DNA of 64,000 nt from Acidimicrobiia bacterium (lineage in GTDB: Bacteria > Actinomycetota > Acidimicrobiia > Acidimicrobiales > Poriferisodalaceae), in the NCBI GenBank assembly GCA_022826045.1, contig JAJDVQ010000055.1, positions 1-64,000 on the forward strand, given 5' to 3'. A model generated the notes under the pieces. It did not search any database, was not told the origin of the DNA, and saw nothing but the letters and a program-made list of their open reading frames with translations. The position numbers and the translations under genes were made by a program. Positions 9,974 through 22,030 of this stretch are shown here, piece by piece. The first letter of the stretch is position 1, and each line of letters opens with the position of its first letter.

Positions 9974-11749
9974 ATGACTTGCGAGCATCCTGCGATGCAA
10001 GAACCAGCCGCAACCCCCGATCGCCACATTCGCTTCGAAGCCTCCGACACACCTCCGCTGCCGCTCACGGCAGGGCTCGGCATGCAGTTCGCCATCCTCG
10101 CCATCGCCGGCATCGTGCTGACACCTGCCATCGTGGTCCGGGCCGCCGACGGATCGGATGCCTACCTGGCGTGGGCAGTGTTCGCCGCAGCGGCGATCAG
10201 CGGCGTCAGCACCATCCTGCAGGCCGTTCGATTCGGACGCATCGGCGCGGGATACGTGCTGCTGATGGGCACCTCCGGCGCGTTCATCGCGGTGTGCGTC
10301 ACGGCGCTCGTCGACGGCGGGCCGGGCCTCTTGGCCACCTTGGTCGTTGCCTCGTCGCTGTTCCAGTTCCTGCTGGCTGCCAAGCTCGCCCTGTTCCGGC
10401 GGTTGTTCACGCCGACCGTGGCCGGGACCGTGGTCATGCTCATCGCAGTCTCGGTGATGCCGCTCATCTTCGACATGGTGGCTGCCTCACCCGAAGGCGC
10501 GGCCGCGGCGAGTGCGCCCGTCAGCGCTCTTGTGGCCGTCTGCGTCATTGTGGTGATCGCGCTGAAGGCCCGCGGCAGTCTCCGTTTGTGGGCGCCAGTC
10601 ATCGGCATCGTGGTCGGATCGACGGTTGCAGCATTCTTCGGGTTGTACGACTTCGATCGGATTGCCGGTGCGGGCTGGATCGGACTGCCCGACGGCGGCT
10701 GGCCCGGTTTCGACTTCACGTTCGGATCCGAGTTCTGGATCCTCCTGCCGGGTTTCGTGTTCGCCACCGTCATCGGCGCCATCGAGACCATCGGCGACTC
10801 GGTGGCCATCCAGCGCGTGTCCTGGCGACGGCCCCGAGCCGTCGACTACCGGGCAGTGCAGGGCGCCGTGGCCGCCGACGGCACCGGCAATCTGCTGTCG
10901 GGACTGGCCGGCACGGTGCCCAACACCACCTATTCCATGAGCATTTCCGTCACTGAGCTGACCGGAGTGGCGGCGCGCCGGGTGGGCGTGGCCATCGGCG
11001 CCGCGTTCATCGTGATGGCGTTCGTGCCGAAGGCGCTGGCCACGGTGATGGCGGTGCCCGATGCCGTCGTCGCGGCATACGCAACGATCCTGCTGGCGAT
11101 GCTGTTCGTGACCGGCATGCAGATCGTCATCGCTGACGCGACCGACTACCGCAAGGGGCTGATCGCGGGCTTCTCGTTCTGGATCGGCGTCGGCTTCCAG
11201 AACGGCGTGATCTTCCCCGAGTACCTGTCGGGCTTTGCCGGCGGCTTCCTCGAGAACGGCATGACGGCCGGCGGGCTCACGGCCATTGTCCTGACGCTGT
11301 TCACCGAGGTCGCCCAAGCTCGCCCCCAGCGGATGCGCTGCGAGTTGACGACCCAGTCATTGCCGCAGGTTCGGGTGTTCCTGGGCCGCTTCGCCGACCG
11401 CAACGGCTGGAACCGGGTGATGTCGGACCGTCTCGACGCAGTGGCCGAGGAGGCGCTGCTGACACTGATCGACGCCGAACGGCCTGTTGGTGCAGGCGAG
11501 GGCCGCACTCTGCGGTTGACGGCGAGCAAGCAGGACGGCGGTGCCGTCCTCGAGTTCGTGGCCGCGGCGAGCGAGGAGAACATCGAGGACCGGCTCGCCG
11601 TGCTGGATTCGCACAGCGCCGAGAGGCCAGTCGAGCGAGACCTGTCCTTGCGGATGCTCCGGCATCACGCAGCATCGGTGAATCATCAGCAGTATCACGA
11701 GGTGGATATCGTGACCGTCCACGTTGACGTGCCCGATCCCAGAGGCTGA
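9974..11749 (+). CDS. NCS2 nucleobase permease with a C-terminal ATPase-like domain
   Basis: 591 residues. Residues up to about 440 are a uracil/xanthine (NCS2) transporter: some 12-14 hydrophobic segments, the helix-8 carboxylate FATVIGAIETIGDSVAIQ, and the helix-10 signature NLLSGLAGTVPNTTYSMSI, close to the NCS2 motif GxxxxxPxTTYSENxG. After QARPQRMRCELTTQ the protein continues for about 140 soluble residues with the pattern of a histidine-kinase/anti-sigma type ATPase (GHKL): an alpha helix with VAEEALLTLI at the N-box place, then beta strands LRLTASKQDGGAVLEFVA and a helix SLRMLRHHA. The N-box Asn is missing, so it may not bind ATP. Start ATG 9974 or 9995. The substrate is probably a purine or pyrimidine base. 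Confidence 0.8.
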   Translation: MTCEHPAMQEPAATPDRHIRFEASDTPPLPLTAGLGMQFAILAIAGIVLTPAIVVRAADGSDAYLAWAVFAAAAISGVSTILQAVRFGRIGAGYVLLMGTSGAFIAVCVTALVDGGPGLLATLVVASSLFQFLLAAKLALFRRLFTPTVAGTVVMLIAVSVMPLIFDMVAASPEGAAAASAPVSALVAVCVIVVIALKARGSLRLWAPVIGIVVGSTVAAFFGLYDFDRIAGAGWIGLPDGGWPGFDFTFGSEFWILLPGFVFATVIGAIETIGDSVAIQRVSWRRPRAVDYRAVQGAVAADGTGNLLSGLAGTVPNTTYSMSISVTELTGVAARRVGVAIGAAFIVMAFVPKALATVMAVPDAVVAAYATILLAMLFVTGMQIVIADATDYRKGLIAGFSFWIGVGFQNGVIFPEYLSGFAGGFLENGMTAGGLTAIVLTLFTEVAQARPQRMRCELTTQSLPQVRVFLGRFADRNGWNRVMSDRLDAVAEEALLTLIDAERPVGAGEGRTLRLTASKQDGGAVLEFVAAASEENIEDRLAVLDSHSAERPVERDLSLRMLRHHAASVNHQQYHEVDIVTVHVDVPDPRG

Positions 11750-13775: not shown

Positions 13776-14459
13776 CTACGGGATCAGGTAGACGACCGCG
13801 AAGATCACGATCCAGACGATGTCGACGAAGTGCCAGTACAGGCCGATGATCTCGACGGTCTCGGCCCGCTCAGGACCGATGATCCCCCGATTGATCATCG
13901 CCCACAGCGAGACCAGCATGATGATGCCCAGCGACACGTGGACGCCGTGGAAGCCGGTCAACGTGTAGAAGGCCGACGACGAGATGCTGACGGTGAAGCC
14001 GAGGCCTTCCCGGTAGAAGCTCGTGAACTCGTACACCTGACCGGCGATGAACACGGCACCCTGCGCTGCGGTGGTCAGCAGCCACAGCTTGCAGCGCTCC
14101 ATCTCGCCCCTGGCGATCGCCGACACCGCGAGCACCATGGTGAGCGAGCTCATCAACAGCACGAACGAGCTCGCCGAGGTGAACGGGATGTCGAACAGAT
14201 CGGCGGCCCGCAGCGACCCCTCGCCCGACAGCGGTCGACGGTTGCGCAGCAGCAAGTACGTCGAGATCAGCGCCCCGAAGAGCAGGCAATCCGAACCCAG
14301 AAAGGTCCACATCGTCAGCTTCTCGTTGGACAGACTTGTGGTGGGCGGGATGATCTCGTAGTCGTCCCACTCGGTGCGGGGGTAGGCGATCTGCGGTTCG
14401 TCGCCTTCGGCCGGTTCGACGGCGGCTGCCGTGCTGCCCGTGGTGGGGGTGTCAGTCAC
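13776..14459 (-). CDS. ctaE: cytochrome c oxidase subunit III
   Basis: 227 residues from GTG 14459, which overlaps the stop of ctaD by 8 bases. A 45-residue hydrophilic N-terminus is followed by five membrane helices: LTMWTFLGSDCLLFGALISTYL, SSFVLLMSSLTMVLAVSAI, LWLLTTAAQGAVFIAGQVYE, FYTLTGFHGVHVSLGIIMLV and IIGLYWHFVDIVWIVIFAVVYL. GFHGVHV and YWHFVDIVW are the hallmark motifs of heme-copper oxidase subunit III. It lines the oxygen entry path of the complex. An ATG further upstream would lie inside ctaD and is unlikely. Confidence 0.95.
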   Translation of the reverse strand: MTDTPTTGSTAAAVEPAEGDEPQIAYPRTEWDDYEIIPPTTSLSNEKLTMWTFLGSDCLLFGALISTYLLLRNRRPLSGEGSLRAADLFDIPFTSASSFVLLMSSLTMVLAVSAIARGEMERCKLWLLTTAAQGAVFIAGQVYEFTSFYREGLGFTVSISSSAFYTLTGFHGVHVSLGIIMLVSLWAMINRGIIGPERAETVEIIGLYWHFVDIVWIVIFAVVYLIP

Positions 14460-16545
14460 CGGCGGCCTCCCCGTTCGCTGTGCTGGCGGCCAGCACGCCG
14501 TTGTGGCCGTCGGGACTGTCAGGATCTTTGGCGCCATGATCATCGTCGTGGTCGCCATGCCCGTCGTGGCCGTGACCGTGGCCCGCGTCGGGATCGGTGG
14601 CCGGCTCGAGCGTCCAGCCGAACATGGAGCCGACCAGCAGCAGCAGCCCGATGCCGGCGATCCACAGGTTGTAGATCAGCCCGAACCCGATGAGCGGCAA
14701 GCCCGCCGCCAGCACGATCGGCCAGTACGACGGCGACGGCAGGTGCGGGTGCTGATCGCCGAGTTGGGCGATGTCGTTGCCGTAGGCGATCCGTCGCAGC
14801 TTGCCGGTCTCGTCGGGCTGGTATTTCTTGTGCCAGAAGTCGTCGACGTCGCTCACCACGGGCACGTAGTCGAAGTTGTGCTCGGGCGTCGGCGAGGGAA
14901 TGGCCCATTCCAGCGTGCGGCCGTCCCACGGGTCGGCTCCGGCTTGGGGCTCCAGACCCCGGCGGTAGCGCCCCCACGTGCGGAAGATGTTGACGGCCAG
15001 GATCACCATGGCGATGAGCATGAAGAAGTAGCCGATGGTGGCGATCTTGTTCCAGAACTCGAAACCGTCGAATTCGCCATAGACGCTGTGGCGCCGGGCC
15101 ATGCCCTGCAAGCCCACGATGTGCATCGGCCCGAAGGTGGTGTTGAAGCCGATGAGCATCAGCCAGAAGTGCCAGCGGCCCATCCGCTCGTTGAGGTGGT
15201 AGCCGAACGCCTTGGGCCACCAGTAGTACATGCCGGCGAACATGCCCATGAGGGCGCCGCCCACGAGCACGTAGTGGAAGTGCGCCACGATGAAGTACGT
15301 GTCGGTCTGCTGGGTGTCGGCAGGTGCGATCGCATGCATGACGCCGGACAGGCCGCCGATCGTGAACATCGCCACGAGCGACACCGAGAACATCATCGGC
15401 ACGGTGAAGCGGACCTTGCCCGCCCACATGGTCGCGATCCAGTTCAGGATCTTCACGCCTGTGGGCACCGCGATGAACATGGTGGTCGCCGAGAACGCCG
15501 CCACCGAGACCGGCCCCATGCCCGAGGTGAACATGTGATGCGCCCACACGCCCCATCCCATGAAGCCGATGGCCGCACCCGACAGCACCACGATCGGGTA
15601 GCCGAACAGCGGCTTGCGGCTGAACACCGGCAGCGTCTCGGACACCACGCCGAATGCCGGCAGGATCAGGATGTAGACCTCCGGATGGCCGAATATCCAG
15701 AACAGGTGCTGCCACAGCAGCGGATCGGCGCCCGCGTCGACATTGAAGAAGTTGGCGTCGAAGGTTCGATCGAACGTCAGCAGGATCAGCGCCACCGTGA
15801 TGACCGGCAGGGCGAACACCAGCAGGAACTGCACGACCAGGATCATCCAGGTGAACACCGGCATGCGCAGCAGGCTCATGCCCGGGCAGCGCATGTTGAT
15901 GATGGTCACCAGCAGGTTGATGGCGCCGAGCAGCGAGGCGATGCCGGCGATCTGCAGGCCCAGGGCGTAGAAGTCCATGCCGTGACCAGGGCTGTAGGCC
16001 ATGCCGGTATTGGGCGCATAGGCGAACCAGCCGCCGTCGGCGCCGCCGCCCAGGAACCAGCTGAGATTCAGGAAGATGCCGCCGAAGAAGAAGACCCACA
16101 GGCCCAGCGCATTCATGCGCGGGAAGGCCACGTCCCTGGCGCCGATCTGCAGCGGCACGAGATAGTTCGCGAACGCGTTCGCCAGCGGCATGATCACCAG
16201 GAAGACCATGGTGACGCCGTGCATGGTGAACAGCTGGTTGTAGAAGTCGGCGCTGATCACCTCGCCGTCGGGCGCCCACAGCTGCAGGCGCACCAGCCCG
16301 ATCTCGAGGCCGCCGATCAGGAACCAGAACAGCGCGAGGGCGCCGTACATGATCCCGATCTTCTTGTGGTCCACCGTGAACAGCCACTCGCGCCAGCCGG
16401 TCGCGTGAGTCGGGCGTGCAAAGACACCGGTATGGGGCGAGTCCTCGAGGACCGCCGCGCCGCCGCCAGCCGGCTCCAGCTCGGTGCCTGACCCAGAGCT
16501 GCCCCCCAGATCAGGGCTGTCAGGTCGATCTGTGACGATTGCCAT
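14452..16545 (-). CDS. ctaD: cytochrome c oxidase subunit I (caa3 type)
   Basis: 697-residue catalytic subunit: reduces O2 to water at a haem a3-CuB centre and pumps protons. All ligands are present: FTMHGVTMVF (low-spin haem His), WIFGHPEVYILILP (CuB His with the cross-linked Tyr and the type-A Glu), VWAHHMFTSGM (two CuB His) and VAHFHYVLVGG (haem a3 and haem a His). After the 12-helix core there is a C-terminal extension with two more helices (SYWPIVLAAGLPLIGFGLIY; GIGLLLLVGSMFGW) and a His/Asp-rich tail (HGHGHDGHGDHDDDH), which could bind copper. It follows ctaC by 30 bases in the operon. Confidence 0.97.
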   Translation of the reverse strand: MAIVTDRPDSPDLGGSSGSGTELEPAGGGAAVLEDSPHTGVFARPTHATGWREWLFTVDHKKIGIMYGALALFWFLIGGLEIGLVRLQLWAPDGEVISADFYNQLFTMHGVTMVFLVIMPLANAFANYLVPLQIGARDVAFPRMNALGLWVFFFGGIFLNLSWFLGGGADGGWFAYAPNTGMAYSPGHGMDFYALGLQIAGIASLLGAINLLVTIINMRCPGMSLLRMPVFTWMILVVQFLLVFALPVITVALILLTFDRTFDANFFNVDAGADPLLWQHLFWIFGHPEVYILILPAFGVVSETLPVFSRKPLFGYPIVVLSGAAIGFMGWGVWAHHMFTSGMGPVSVAAFSATTMFIAVPTGVKILNWIATMWAGKVRFTVPMMFSVSLVAMFTIGGLSGVMHAIAPADTQQTDTYFIVAHFHYVLVGGALMGMFAGMYYWWPKAFGYHLNERMGRWHFWLMLIGFNTTFGPMHIVGLQGMARRHSVYGEFDGFEFWNKIATIGYFFMLIAMVILAVNIFRTWGRYRRGLEPQAGADPWDGRTLEWAIPSPTPEHNFDYVPVVSDVDDFWHKKYQPDETGKLRRIAYGNDIAQLGDQHPHLPSPSYWPIVLAAGLPLIGFGLIYNLWIAGIGLLLLVGSMFGWTLEPATDPDAGHGHGHDGHGDHDDDHGAKDPDSPDGHNGVLAASTANGEAAGD

Positions 16546-16575: not shown

Positions 16576-17751
16576 TCATCGGGGCAGCACCGGCTCGTTG
16601 CCGAGTGTCCTCAGGTAGGCCATCAAGTTGTCGAGGTCCTGATCGGTCAGCACCTCTGAGAAGTCCAGCATGCCCTGCAGGTTGTCCGCGCGCGCAGGCT
16701 TCAAGTCGGGCGCGTTGCGCACCCATTCGCGCAGCCCAGCGATGTTGACGATGAGCTTGCCGTCAGGTCCGCGCACGTACTCGCGGTCGGCGTCCTGCAC
16801 ATAGGTCTCGTACAGCGCCCCGGCGAACGCCGTGCGGCTCATCAGATTGGTGAGGTTGGGCGCGATGCCCGCGAGGAGGTTCGCATTGCCGCCCGCTGCG
16901 CTCTCGTACACCCCGTCGACGACATGGCAGCTGATGCAATGAGTCTCGAACAGCGAGGCGCCGGCAGCTTCAGCCGAGTCTTCAGCGAGGGGCTCGGCGG
17001 CCGCAGCACGTCCTGCTTGCTGCCCTTCGAGCCAGCGCTCGAAGTCGGCTTCTTCCAGCACGATTGCCCGCATCTGCATGTTGGCGTGGCTGAGACCGCA
17101 GAACTCCACGCACTCGCCATAGAAGATGCCCGGCTCGGTGGAGCTGATCCGCCAGTGGTGCACGCGACCCGGTACCGCGTCCCGCTTGCCGTTCAGCTGC
17201 GGGATCCAGAACGAGTGGATGACGTCGTTGGAATGGATCTCGAGGTTGACCTCTTCGCCAACCGGGATCACCAGGTCGTTTGCGGTGACGATGTCGGCAG
17301 CGTCGTCAAAGTCGCCGTCCTCGTTGACGTCGTAGCTGAACTGCCACCACCACTGCTGACCTTCGACCTTGATCGTGCGACCGTCGCCCTCTCTGGCGAG
17401 CGCGAACACCGTCGGCAGCGTGATGATCGTGAGGAACACCAGCAATGCCGTCGGGATGAGCGTCCACGTGATCTCGGCCTTGCGATTGCCATGAATCTGC
17501 GGCGGCAGGTCGTCGGGATCGTCGGTGGGCTTGGCCCGGAACTTCACGATGATCACGACGACGGCAGCCGCCACGAAGATGCCCACTCCCACGGCCATCC
17601 AGCCCGACAGGCGCATGAGACCGTCGATGTCCTGGGCCTCCTTGCCGATGGGCTTGGTGGCATCGAGCTGACCGGTGGCACAGCCGACAACCAGCAGTGC
17701 GACACCTGCCAGGACAGCGAGGCGCAGTCCGCGAGCGAAGCGGGTGCCCAT
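16576..17751 (-). CDS. ctaC: cytochrome c oxidase subunit II fused to cytochrome c (caa3)
   Basis: 391 residues. A lipoprotein-type signal (LAVLAGVALLVVGC) is followed by two membrane helices and the cupredoxin domain, with the Trp-rich electron entry patch GQQWWWQFSYD and the CuA site HSFWIPQLNGKRD ... YGECVEFCGLSHANM. Residues beyond about 285 form a fused c-type cytochrome domain: CISCH is the haem-binding motif and NLQGMLDFSEVL supplies the axial Met. This makes the enzyme caa3-type, taking electrons from the cytochrome bc complex directly. An insert (YDVNEDGDFDDAADIVTAND) in the CuA domain is unusually acidic. Start ATG 17751 overlaps the previous stop (TGATG); GTG 17754 directly before it is possible. 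Confidence 0.95.
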   Translation of the reverse strand: MGTRFARGLRLAVLAGVALLVVGCATGQLDATKPIGKEAQDIDGLMRLSGWMAVGVGIFVAAAVVVIIVKFRAKPTDDPDDLPPQIHGNRKAEITWTLIPTALLVFLTIITLPTVFALAREGDGRTIKVEGQQWWWQFSYDVNEDGDFDDAADIVTANDLVIPVGEEVNLEIHSNDVIHSFWIPQLNGKRDAVPGRVHHWRISSTEPGIFYGECVEFCGLSHANMQMRAIVLEEADFERWLEGQQAGRAAAAEPLAEDSAEAAGASLFETHCISCHVVDGVYESAAGGNANLLAGIAPNLTNLMSRTAFAGALYETYVQDADREYVRGPDGKLIVNIAGLREWVRNAPDLKPARADNLQGMLDFSEVLTDQDLDNLMAYLRTLGNEPVLPR

Positions 17752-18542
17752 CACTCGTGACTCCCCTCAGACTCGCTCATCTCGTCGGAGGAGCGCGACC
17801 CGCCGTCGCCGGCGGGGCCGTGTCCATCAGACGCCTCGGCGTGGCCGCCGGGGTGATGGAACTCGCGCTCGCCGATGACGGCCGAAGCGATGCCCCCTGC
17901 GATCAGCGCGATACCGCCCAGCACGAGCACTGACGCGGCGATCGAGCGCCGCAGCCGTGGCTTCGCGTACACGACGAACGCGAACGTGAGGATGACCGTT
18001 GCGATCGCGATGGCGACGAAGCTTGCAGCGGTCTTGCTCACCGTCAGGAAGATCCGCGACGCCAGCACCACCGGTATGGCAATGCCCAGCGCGCCGTAGA
18101 GCGAGATCTCGAATGGCCGCAGCAGCCGTGCCCGCTCGACGGCGTTGGATTCGGCATCGGTCGACAGGTGCTCGGCCCAGGCGCTCATCGTCCACTCGAT
18201 GGCAGAGATCAGCAGCAGCGCGACACCGCAAATGGCGAGCAGCGAGTCGGTGACCAGACCCACCATGAGCACGCCCATGCCCAGCGCGGCCATGATCGGC
18301 CAGTAGGCCGGCGTGGGCTGGTGATCGGCCAGATGCTCGCGGTCGAGCGAGTCGCCGTCGCCGACCGTCAAAGCCAAGCTGAACAGCAGCGCGAACGCCC
18401 CCGCAGCAACGCCCAGCACGATCGTGGCGTACATGACCACATGGCCTGTGCCGTCCATGCCGGTGAGGACACCGACCACGGCGGCGGCCGCGGCGGCCAG
18501 CGCAATGCGTCCGGCGAAGTACCTGCTGGCGATGCCGACCAT
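17751..18542 (-). CDS. polytopic membrane protein of the oxidase operon
   Basis: 263 residues with about eight hydrophobic helices in pairs and a His/Ser/Glu-rich C-terminal tail (REFHHPGGHAEASDGHGPAGD in outline). The segment HQPTPAYWPIMAALGMGVLMVGL, followed by LLAICGVALLLISAIEWTMSAW, matches the C-terminal extension of the neighbouring ctaD (PSPSYWPIVLAAGLPLIGFG), a pattern also seen in actinobacterial oxidase subunit IV. It is therefore probably an accessory subunit of the oxidase. It lies between the subunit III-like gene (7 bases) and ctaC (1-base overlap), so it is cotranscribed. I cannot name the family with certainty. Confidence 0.65.
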   Translation of the reverse strand: MVGIASRYFAGRIALAAAAAAVVGVLTGMDGTGHVVMYATIVLGVAAGAFALLFSLALTVGDGDSLDREHLADHQPTPAYWPIMAALGMGVLMVGLVTDSLLAICGVALLLISAIEWTMSAWAEHLSTDAESNAVERARLLRPFEISLYGALGIAIPVVLASRIFLTVSKTAASFVAIAIATVILTFAFVVYAKPRLRRSIAASVLVLGGIALIAGGIASAVIGEREFHHPGGHAEASDGHGPAGDGGSRSSDEMSESEGSHE

Positions 18543-18549
18543 CGATCCC

Positions 18550-19170
18550 CTACTTCACCACGTACACGACGTACCACGTGGCAGCCCACGCAAGCACGGC
18601 GAAGTCCCAGAAGAAGACCGCTGAACCCAGCAGCGTCGAACGGTCCCGGCCGACGCTGCCGCCCAGCGATCTCAGTGTCATCAAGCCGAGATAGAACATT
18701 CCGACGATCAATATCGCCAGCGAGAGCCCGGTCACTGCGAACGCCAGATTCTCCCACTCGCCCGCGCCGAGCTCGATCTCCATGCGGTTGAGGCTGTGCA
18801 TCACCATGTTGAAGAAGGCGAATCCCATCACGAGCGTGATGGCCATGCCCACCCAGGTGTGGCCGCGTTCGCCGCGTCGGCTGGCCCAGTGCGCCCAGTG
18901 CGCCGTCACCACCGAGACCAGCAGCGTGATGAGGGCGTACACCAGCTGCGGGTTGGGCACGGATTGGCCGGCCAGCCAGTCATGCCCAGGGTCGTCGAGG
19001 AGGTGGCGACGTGCCATGTAGTGGCCCAGCGCGCCAGCAACCGCCATGGACCCTGCCGCGATGGCGAAGCCGGTGCCGACGAGCTGGCTGCGCGGGCGCG
19101 GCGGCAGGCCGGGAACGGTGTAGCGACCGGGCTGGGGTGCTTCGGCGGTGCTCACCGCGGTCTCGGACAT
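18550..19170 (-). CDS. second, divergent heme-copper oxidase subunit III-like protein
   Basis: 206 residues from ATG 19170. Five membrane helices can be traced: LVGTGFAIAAGSMAVAGALG, LVYALITLLVSVVTAHWAHW, TWVGMAITLVMGFAFFNMVMH, LAFAVTGLSLAILIVGMFYL and GSAVFFWDFAVLAWAATWYV. The last ends in FWDFAVLAWAATWYVVYV, the counterpart of subunit III's WHFVDIVWIVIF with the His lost. Its start overlaps the stop of the ligand-less subunit I gene (TGATG), so the two are made together as a pair separate from ctaD/ctaE. Role unknown. Confidence 0.7.
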   Translation of the reverse strand: MSETAVSTAEAPQPGRYTVPGLPPRPRSQLVGTGFAIAAGSMAVAGALGHYMARRHLLDDPGHDWLAGQSVPNPQLVYALITLLVSVVTAHWAHWASRRGERGHTWVGMAITLVMGFAFFNMVMHSLNRMEIELGAGEWENLAFAVTGLSLAILIVGMFYLGLMTLRSLGGSVGRDRSTLLGSAVFFWDFAVLAWAATWYVVYVVK

Positions 19171-20891
19171 CAGGCCGGCACCTCGGAGGCTGTGCGCTCG
19201 GCCGACGCAACGCTGCCGTTGAGCTCGGCATCGAGCAGGGGGGTGCCCGAGTTCAGCTGCGGCAGGGAATCGGACTGTCCCAAGGCCGGCGGCGAGTCGA
19301 GCAGCCATTCGGGCGTCAGGCCGCCCCACGGATCGGCATCCGCTTCGGCACCCTTGCCCATGCCCACCGAGACCAGGAGATTCAGCACGACGAGCCCGAG
19401 GCCGGCCAGCACGATGACGACGCCGATGCCGCCGACCACCGAGAGACCCTCAGCAGCAGAGCTGTCGATGAGGCTGCCGTAGTCAGTGGTCAGCAACGGA
19501 TCGTTGTAGACGAACTGGGGCTGCTCGGTGAACGCGCCCGACAGCGTCGGGCCGAGCCATGCCAGGAAGGCGCCCCCGCCGATCGCGGCGAAGCTGGCCC
19601 ACCCGGCCAACTCCGACAGCCGCCGTCCCCAGATCTTCGGGGCCCACCAGTGCAGTGCCGCCAGCACGCCCAGCAGCCCCGCACCGTAGATGAGCAGGCT
19701 CTGCTGACCCGTGACCCAAGTGGTGAAGCGCAGCGGGGCGTTGCCGTCGACGCCGCGGCCCGCGATGTTCAGCCAATCCACGCCGGCGCCGATCAGCCCG
19801 ACCAGAGCGACGACCGCGATGAGCTTTCCCGCGCCGAACGCAGCCAGCACTGCGGTGGTGGGACGCGGCCATGTGCGGCTCTGCCATACGGTGAATCCCA
19901 GCAGCGCCAGCAGGCCGCCCACACCGGCCAGCGCACCGGCGTAGAGGCCGACCAGCACGATGCCCTCGAGGCCGTCGACGACGTCGGCACCCTCGCCGGC
20001 GATGCCGAAGTTGGCCCAGGCGCCGAAGCCGAACAAGCCGACAAGACCCATGGTGAAGTACAGCGCCAGCGGCTCGAAGACCCAGCGGCGTGCAGCGGCC
20101 AGCATGATCTCAGCCGCCACCCCCAGCACAGGCACGACATAGATGAACAGCTGCGGCGTCCGGTACATCCAGTCGATGCGGGGCCAGACGCCGTAGTTTC
20201 CGTCGAGAAAGTGGCGGCCGTAGCCGTGGTCGATGTAGAGCAGGACCAGCTGGCCTAGCACCACGCCGAGGCTGACCACCAGCATCGACGCCGTGACCAG
20301 CGCTGACCACGCGAACGGCGGCGTGCGGTCCATGTACATGCCCGGCGCACGCATGGTGAGCGTGGTGACGGCAACGCAGATGGCACCGACAATCAGCGAC
20401 ATCACCAGTCCCGCCAAGGCGAGCATGTGCAGCCGGACGCCCTCGTCCCAGCCGCCGGCGGGACCCCCGTTGCCGATGTACGCGCCGACCAGCACGCCGA
20501 ACGACACCAGCCAGCCCCAGAAGGACAGGGCCGCCGCCCGCGCAAAGGCAATGTTGGGTGCGCCGACCTGCAACGGGACGATGTAGATCGCGACGCCCAG
20601 GAAGAACGGGATGAGCATCCCGAAGACCAGCGCGTCGCGGGTGAACATGAACACTTGGGTGAAGGTCTCGAGATTGAGCACCGCATGCCCGCTGTCAGAG
20701 GCGAGATCGAATCGCACCAGCGCATCGGTGATGGCGCCGGCGAGCGCGAAGAGCAGCGAGAACCCGATGAACAGCCGACCGATGCGCTTGTGGTCGGCCG
20801 TGTTGAGCAGACCGAACGCGGTCGGGTCTTCTGCCTGCGGAGCTACGGCAGACCCTGTCGAATGCGCAGCTTCGGTGGTGGCGTCGGTCAT
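19170..20891 (-). CDS. subunit I-like heme-copper oxidase homologue lacking all metal ligands
   Basis: 573 residues with about 12-14 membrane helices and clear subunit I landmarks: ADHKRIGRLFIGFSLLFAL at the start, IYIVPLQVGAPNIAFARAAALSFW after helix II (ctaD: NYLVPLQIGARDVAFPRMNALGLW in outline), IYVVPVLGVAAEI in helix VI and LHWWAPKIWGR after helix X. Yet every ligand is gone compared with ctaD: MHGVTM becomes FTRDAL, GHPEVY becomes RTPQLF, WAHHMF becomes WANFGI and AHFHYV becomes GQQSLL. So it can bind neither haem nor CuB in the usual way. The frame is intact and heads the oxidase operon, so it is probably a conserved non-catalytic protein, perhaps a structural partner or proton channel. 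Start ATG 20891. Confidence 0.8.
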   Translation of the reverse strand: MTDATTEAAHSTGSAVAPQAEDPTAFGLLNTADHKRIGRLFIGFSLLFALAGAITDALVRFDLASDSGHAVLNLETFTQVFMFTRDALVFGMLIPFFLGVAIYIVPLQVGAPNIAFARAAALSFWGWLVSFGVLVGAYIGNGGPAGGWDEGVRLHMLALAGLVMSLIVGAICVAVTTLTMRAPGMYMDRTPPFAWSALVTASMLVVSLGVVLGQLVLLYIDHGYGRHFLDGNYGVWPRIDWMYRTPQLFIYVVPVLGVAAEIMLAAARRWVFEPLALYFTMGLVGLFGFGAWANFGIAGEGADVVDGLEGIVLVGLYAGALAGVGGLLALLGFTVWQSRTWPRPTTAVLAAFGAGKLIAVVALVGLIGAGVDWLNIAGRGVDGNAPLRFTTWVTGQQSLLIYGAGLLGVLAALHWWAPKIWGRRLSELAGWASFAAIGGGAFLAWLGPTLSGAFTEQPQFVYNDPLLTTDYGSLIDSSAAEGLSVVGGIGVVIVLAGLGLVVLNLLVSVGMGKGAEADADPWGGLTPEWLLDSPPALGQSDSLPQLNSGTPLLDAELNGSVASAERTASEVPA

Positions 20892-21094: not shown

Positions 21095-21994
21095 TCACCA
21101 GCTGAGCCGGACGACCACGTCGACAGCCATCGCCGCGAACAGCAGCCCCAAGTACGCGATCGAGGTGTGGAACACACGCATCGCGGTGTGGGGTGTCAGG
21201 GCGCGCCACAGCGTCACCAGCTGCCATCCGAACGCAGCGCCGCCGGCCAACGCGACCGCCCAGTACAGGCCTCGGGCGTCGGCGGCGACGGCAAACCACA
21301 GCGACAGCGCGATCACCGCAAAGGTGTGCAGTGTCATCTGCACCAGCACCGAGCGCTCGCTGGCCACCGACGGCAGCATCGGCACCTCGGCGGTGTCGTA
21401 GTCGTCGGCGTAGCGGATGGCCAGCGCCCAGAAATGCGGCGGCGTCCAGAAGAAGACGATCGCGAACGCGATCCAAGCCTCGAGCGACAGCGTGCCTGTC
21501 ACCGCGGCCCAGCCGACGAGCACCGGTGCAGCGCCGGCCGCCCCGCCGATGACGATGTTCTGGGCCGACGACCGCTTCAGCCACAGCGTGTACACGAACA
21601 CGTAGAACAGGCACGCAGCCAGCGCGAGCAGGGCTGCAAGCAGGTTGGCGCCCCACCACAGAATCCCGAACGCTGCCGCTTCGAGCACCATGCCGTAGAT
21701 CAGCGCAGCACGCGGTGTCACCGTGCCGACGACCAACGGGCGGTGGGCCGTGCGAGCCATCGTCGCGTCGATGTCGCGATCTATGTACATGTTGAAGGTG
21801 TTCGCGCCGGCCGCCGACAGCGTGCCGCCGACCACGGTGAACAGCATCAGCGCCACCGACGGCACGCCACGCTCGGCCACAAACATCGGCGGCACCGTCG
21901 TCACCAGCAGCAGTTCGATGATGCGCGGCTTGGTGAGCGCGACGTATCCCCGCAATGTCGATCCACGCAGAGTCGGGCGCAGCGCCGCCAGCAT
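21095..21994 (-). CDS. ctaB: protoheme IX farnesyltransferase (haem O synthase)
   Basis: 299-residue UbiA-family prenyltransferase that adds a farnesyl group to protohaem to make haem O, the precursor of haem A for the oxidase encoded next door. The first prenyl-diphosphate motif is NMYIDRDIDATMARTAHRPL (NxxxDxxxD); the second is RYADDYDTAEVPMLP. About nine membrane helices follow the pattern of the family, and FWTPPHFWALAI is the conserved haem O synthase stretch. It is 203 bases downstream of the oxidase operon's first gene on the same strand and is divergent from ctaA, with only 36 bases between the two starts. Confidence 0.96.
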   Translation of the reverse strand: MLAALRPTLRGSTLRGYVALTKPRIIELLLVTTVPPMFVAERGVPSVALMLFTVVGGTLSAAGANTFNMYIDRDIDATMARTAHRPLVVGTVTPRAALIYGMVLEAAAFGILWWGANLLAALLALAACLFYVFVYTLWLKRSSAQNIVIGGAAGAAPVLVGWAAVTGTLSLEAWIAFAIVFFWTPPHFWALAIRYADDYDTAEVPMLPSVASERSVLVQMTLHTFAVIALSLWFAVAADARGLYWAVALAGGAAFGWQLVTLWRALTPHTAMRVFHTSIAYLGLLFAAMAVDVVVRLSW

Positions 21995-22030
21995 TGCTGT
22001 GAGGCTACGAGTCGCCTCTAACGTTTCAGC

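Follow-up and report, generated by a model that had tools for sequence, protein, structure and literature searches.

The stretch of 64,000 nucleotides analyzed here (the window; contig JAJDVQ010000055.1 of assembly GCA_022826045.1, from an Acidimicrobiia bacterium of the order Acidimicrobiales) carries a cytochrome oxidase operon that encodes, besides a canonical subunit I (CtaD), a second subunit I homolog of 573 residues, protein X, which has lost every haem and copper ligand. X is encoded together with a subunit III-like protein, Y, and a protein with a subunit IV-like N-terminal part, Z. Judged from sequence, the three may form a redox-free assembly of subunits I, III and IV that, across much of the order, makes up an integral half of the terminal oxidase without taking part in catalysis, with relatives keeping the steps from loss of CuB to haem a only to no cofactor, and with the copper domain of Z lost alongside. 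We advance this reading tentatively, at slightly less than an even chance; a structural role for X appears plausible.

Homology and predicted fold place X in the A family of subunits I. It matched Pfam COX1 (expectation value, E, 3.3e-42) and TIGR02891 CtaD_CoxA (E 7.4e-56, with 189.8 bits where the cut-off is 670.75), and over residues 24-554 it aligned with solved subunits I, the actinobacterial ones being closest (lowest E 4.7e-34); given these matches, the likeness is not a matter of chance. The predicted model of X resembled many solved subunits I in Foldseek (template-modelling score of about 0.7-0.8). Its predicted local distance difference test value was 61.9 when built from 32 near relatives and 71.6 once canonical CtaD rows were added, and since these rows also pull the model towards the canonical fold, the structural match is supportive rather than independent.

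Six histidines define haem-copper oxidases. When X is aligned with the CtaD of the same operon, the positions of helix II, CuB1, CuB2, CuB3, haem a3 and helix X are occupied by T, T, N, F, Q and S, so that neither the low-spin haem a pair of helices II and X (T and S in X) nor the haem a3 histidine nor any of the three CuB histidines is present. Glu286 is replaced by Q, the cross-linked Tyr by F and the K-channel Lys by L, the proton-channel Asn is missing, and neither propionate Arg is retained. The four motif replacements described in the sequence-only reading (MHGVTM by FTRDAL, GHPEVY by RTPQLF, WAHHMF by WANFGI and AHFHYV by GQQSLL) agree with the alignment, and histidines at the ligand positions, which it had named as evidence to the contrary, did not appear. 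Each of His 34, 155, 222 and 414 of X is shared by at least 31 of the 32 nearest relatives, and His 243 by 19 of 32; the first four lie near helix ends in the model, and no conserved histidine falls on a ligand position. Ligand histidines hidden elsewhere in the helices were considered and rejected. The sole COX2 gene found in the source genome adjoins ctaD, leaving X without a CuA subunit II of its own; in relatives this statement covers the gene neighborhood. The absent ligands would exclude O2 reduction by X, and since the residues that define the family were not found, X should not be filed as a functional oxidase subunit I. Nitric oxide reductases have the six histidines of the superfamily; membership of X among them was likewise rejected, X having no ligand histidine, and the five NCBIfam models listed were CtaD, actinobacterial aa3, CyoB (two) and QoxB.

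Cofactor loss among the relatives of X is graded. In a single alignment of 64 X proteins, a set partly chosen to find intermediates, with 52 CtaD proteins and 11 other canonical subunits, all six ligand histidines were present in every canonical sequence (52/52 and 11/11), and the full CuB set in none of the 64 X, two of which have a single histidine at one CuB position. Both haem a histidines are kept in 25 X proteins, ten of them with the haem a3 histidine and 15 with the pair alone; among the 39 without the pair, 31 lack all six histidines and eight have one or two. The X proteins form one clade with full support and three deep branches. The first has nine rows, all with haem a only; the second has 18, with haem a and a3 in nine, haem a only in five and neither in four; and the third has 37, where both are kept by L083 and haem a only by L042, the other 35, including the window, being without the haem a pair. 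The tree requires at least five changes for the haem a pair, eight for the a3 histidine and three for the copper domain, and the simplest reading would be a CuB-less ancestor with both haems, followed by repeated later losses. At L042-L110 loci, X proteins with haem a and a3 ligands and no CuB ligand are encoded next to Z proteins with a type-1-like copper motif, and these pairs could possibly form a CuB-free haem protein complex.

The residues that X retains are unevenly distributed. Canonical subunits have 131 invariant residues, and at least 80% of the 39 haemless X proteins share 29 of these, none of them a ligand or channel residue; with both ends taken to be cytoplasmic, 22 of 49 are kept on the inner side, two of 52 on the outer side and five of 30 in the middle. 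Compared with CtaD, the least conserved helices are VII to X (0.30-0.37), where the CuB pair, the K-channel Lys and the helix X ligands are located; high values of about 0.6-0.8 were obtained at the N-terminus, in loops II-III, IV-V and X-XI and at the C-terminus. The ratio of non-synonymous to synonymous substitution rates (dN/dS) of X is 0.07-0.20. Frame decay in relatives, which the sequence-only reading had named as a possible sign against it, was not observed: the frame of X is unbroken in 31 of 31 close relatives, which rules out a frameshifted pseudogene. Retained fold, loss of catalytic residues and purifying selection, the three marks of a pseudoenzyme, are thus all found in X, and the proposed membrane protein with an oxidase fold and no cofactors is borne out as an intact subunit I family member, co-encoded with the oxidase.

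The two partner proteins are also related to oxidase subunits. A profile of 20 Y proteins matched solved subunits III (E 2.2e-26). For the N-terminal part of Z the match to subunit IV (CtaF) is weak but consistent: a profile of 36 Z proteins matched mycobacterial 8hcr chain H (E 2.8e-4), PF12270 matched below its cut-off in two relatives, and Z of the window has no Pfam match. Of 82 testable loci, 78 have X directly after ctaB, the gene for haem O synthase, and Z adjoins ctaC in 83 of 85 loci across the order.

Several observations weigh against an integral non-catalytic half of the oxidase. Haemless X proteins keep the inner loops VI-VII and VIII-IX poorly, at 0.25 and 0.40 of the value for CtaD; the inner face is therefore conserved only in part, and the part kept may serve only folding or topology. 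The outer loop III-IV, with 0.63 over the 11 of its 24 columns that allowed a comparison, runs contrary to a simple inner/outer picture. Mean side-chain volume in the helices is below that of CtaD (131 versus 141 cubic angstroms) and no larger after loss of the haem ligands, so there is no sign of how the haem cavities close. Trees disagree on where L083 belongs, a point that matters for the order of losses: two of them place it as the first branch of its group, with weak support (85/96; 79), and a smaller one puts it inside the group. An independent-pairs test of haem against copper domain had too few pairs for significance. In the nine-member branch around L051, ctaB is apart from X in four loci, two of which have other genes between Z and ctaC.

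A complex of X, Y and Z separate from the oxidase is rather unlikely. It would have parts for its own I-III-IV assembly, and the almost complete loss of canonical outer-side invariants fits such a complex; the direct tie to CtaC, CtaD and CtaE consists of gene order, yet this link, seen in the Z-ctaC adjacency, is order-wide. A role in assembly, slightly more probable but still unlikely, would fit the position of X behind ctaB and the fact that Surf1 and Z travel together: Surf1 was found in 75 of 148 genomes searched in the order, and all 75 also have Z (lists compared by eye). Against this, eight of 20 listed Surf1-negative genomes have a strong Z match (53 more are unlisted), and the haem-bearing relatives, with their own ligands and a copper-domain motif, point to a former redox complex. 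Moreover, the source genome already has CtaG and Surf1, and because both are present we rejected X-Y-Z as a replacement for either. Four of the eight Surf1-negative genomes with strong Z have a haem-bearing X (G298, G138, G302 and G225).

An ion path was one of the roles suggested in the sequence-only reading; the oxidase fold comprises 12 helices, and proton movement is a property of normal oxidases. An oxidase fold turned channel is nevertheless very improbable and poorly supported: none of the 64 X proteins has the K-channel Lys, the D-channel Asn has been lost, only 22% retain Glu286, and the mean number of charged or His residues in helix cores falls from 8.4 in CtaD to 5.7 in haem-bearing and 4.3 in haemless X (range 0-9). 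Still less credible, to the point of near dismissal, is a duplicate decaying on its way out. X evolves faster than CtaD by branch lengths, cofactors were lost more than once, and in L096 the Z match has a stop codon and the Z frame is only 149 residues long; decay is contradicted, however, by the unbroken frames and low dN/dS of X, and by the presence of Z in about 266 of 397 genomes of the order.

All genes of the order ctaB-X-Y-Z-ctaC-ctaD-ctaE are on the minus strand, with a divergent ctaA upstream (Table 1). The frame of X starts at 20891, the plus strand at 19170-20891 being interrupted by stops; the overlap is a single base between X and Y and four bases between Z and ctaC. The 573-residue frame was correctly called intact, although it does not head the operon, since ctaB precedes it. 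The sequence-only reading was likewise right about a cofactor-free X, while it missed the minus strand, the preceding ctaB, the three shadow subunits (I, III and IV) and the graded loss in relatives.

Table 1. Genes of the oxidase locus in the window.
Gene	Positions	Strand	Product and features
ctaE	13776..14558	-	Canonical subunit III (frame as listed)
ctaD	14452..16545	-	Canonical subunit I, all ligands, C-terminal CtaF-like part
ctaC	16576..17754	-	Canonical subunit II, CuA motif and fused cytochrome c domain
Z	17751..18542	-	Subunit IV (CtaF)-like N-terminal part, then further membrane segments
Y	18550..19170	-	Subunit III (COX3)-like protein, 206 residues; start overlaps stop of X (TGATG)
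X	19170..20891	-	Subunit I (COX1) homolog, 573 residues, without haem or copper ligands
ctaB	21095..22030	-	Haem O synthase, immediately upstream of X
ctaA	22031..23014	+	COX15-CtaA family (haem A synthase-like), divergent

The CuA and cytochrome c motifs are present in CtaC of the window, and all six ligand histidines in its CtaD. The ctaE frame as listed runs about 100 bases into the end of ctaD, and the actual start is probably further downstream. Beyond the CuA motif, CtaC has about 150-185 residues in the X branch of the window and about 119-149 in the other two branches. The source genome is about 91% complete, and searches of it yielded two COX1 genes and one COX2 gene, one CtaG, one Surf1, one cytochrome b (PF00033) and one short NrfD match (34.5 bits). 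At two loci of the branch around L051, a ZnuA-type metal uptake cluster of the ATP-binding cassette type lies between Z and ctaC (L051, 5100-9600, plus a BNR-repeat gene; L095, 6000-7900). A xanthine/uracil permease of the window (9992-11749, plus strand) is extended at its C-terminus by about 180 residues, which have no Pfam match and by eye resemble a histidine-kinase-type ATPase domain.

We know of no described haem-copper oxidase member without any of the six histidines, and no description of a cofactor-free subunit I was found in the literature searched, most subscription papers being outside its coverage. A respiratory protein fold seems to be retained, in many bacteria of one order, for a job that needs no chemistry. 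Relatives that lose CuB, haem a3 and haem a with the operon kept offer a route to the scaffold's own role in respiration, and the graded series a route to how an enzyme core turns into a non-catalytic partner. Since the Pfam cut-offs are exceeded by X for subunit I and by Y for subunit III, oxidase counts in genomes of the order may be inflated where they depend on such matches.

X is like subunit I of aa3/caa3 oxidases (COX1, CtaD; haem-copper oxidase A family) in homology over residues 24-554, in predicted fold and in having partner genes for subunits III and IV; it differs in lacking the haem a, haem a3 and CuB ligands, the cross-linked Tyr, Glu286, the K-channel Lys, the propionate Arg residues and a subunit II of its own. 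Y and Z are homologous to subunit III (COX3, CtaE) and subunit IV (CtaF, PF12270), yet they are partners of X and not of the catalytic subunit, and Z, unlike CtaF, has additional membrane segments, joined in some relatives by a cupredoxin domain. One paper (PMC8239418) mentions membrane-bound cupredoxins linked to such oxidases. In canonical clusters of other phylum groups, a membrane-anchored cupredoxin homologous to the C-terminal half of Z is encoded after ctaE; in L119-L134, L140 and L141 its gene comes after ctaC-ctaD-ctaE wherever these are visible in the locus, and some have two cupredoxin repeats. L138 and L139, considered as further Z proteins, were rejected as Rieske-type proteins by eye. 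In contrast to these anchored cupredoxins, the domain of Z is fused behind a CtaF-like part, and most haemless loci, including that of the window, have it in degenerate form or have lost it.
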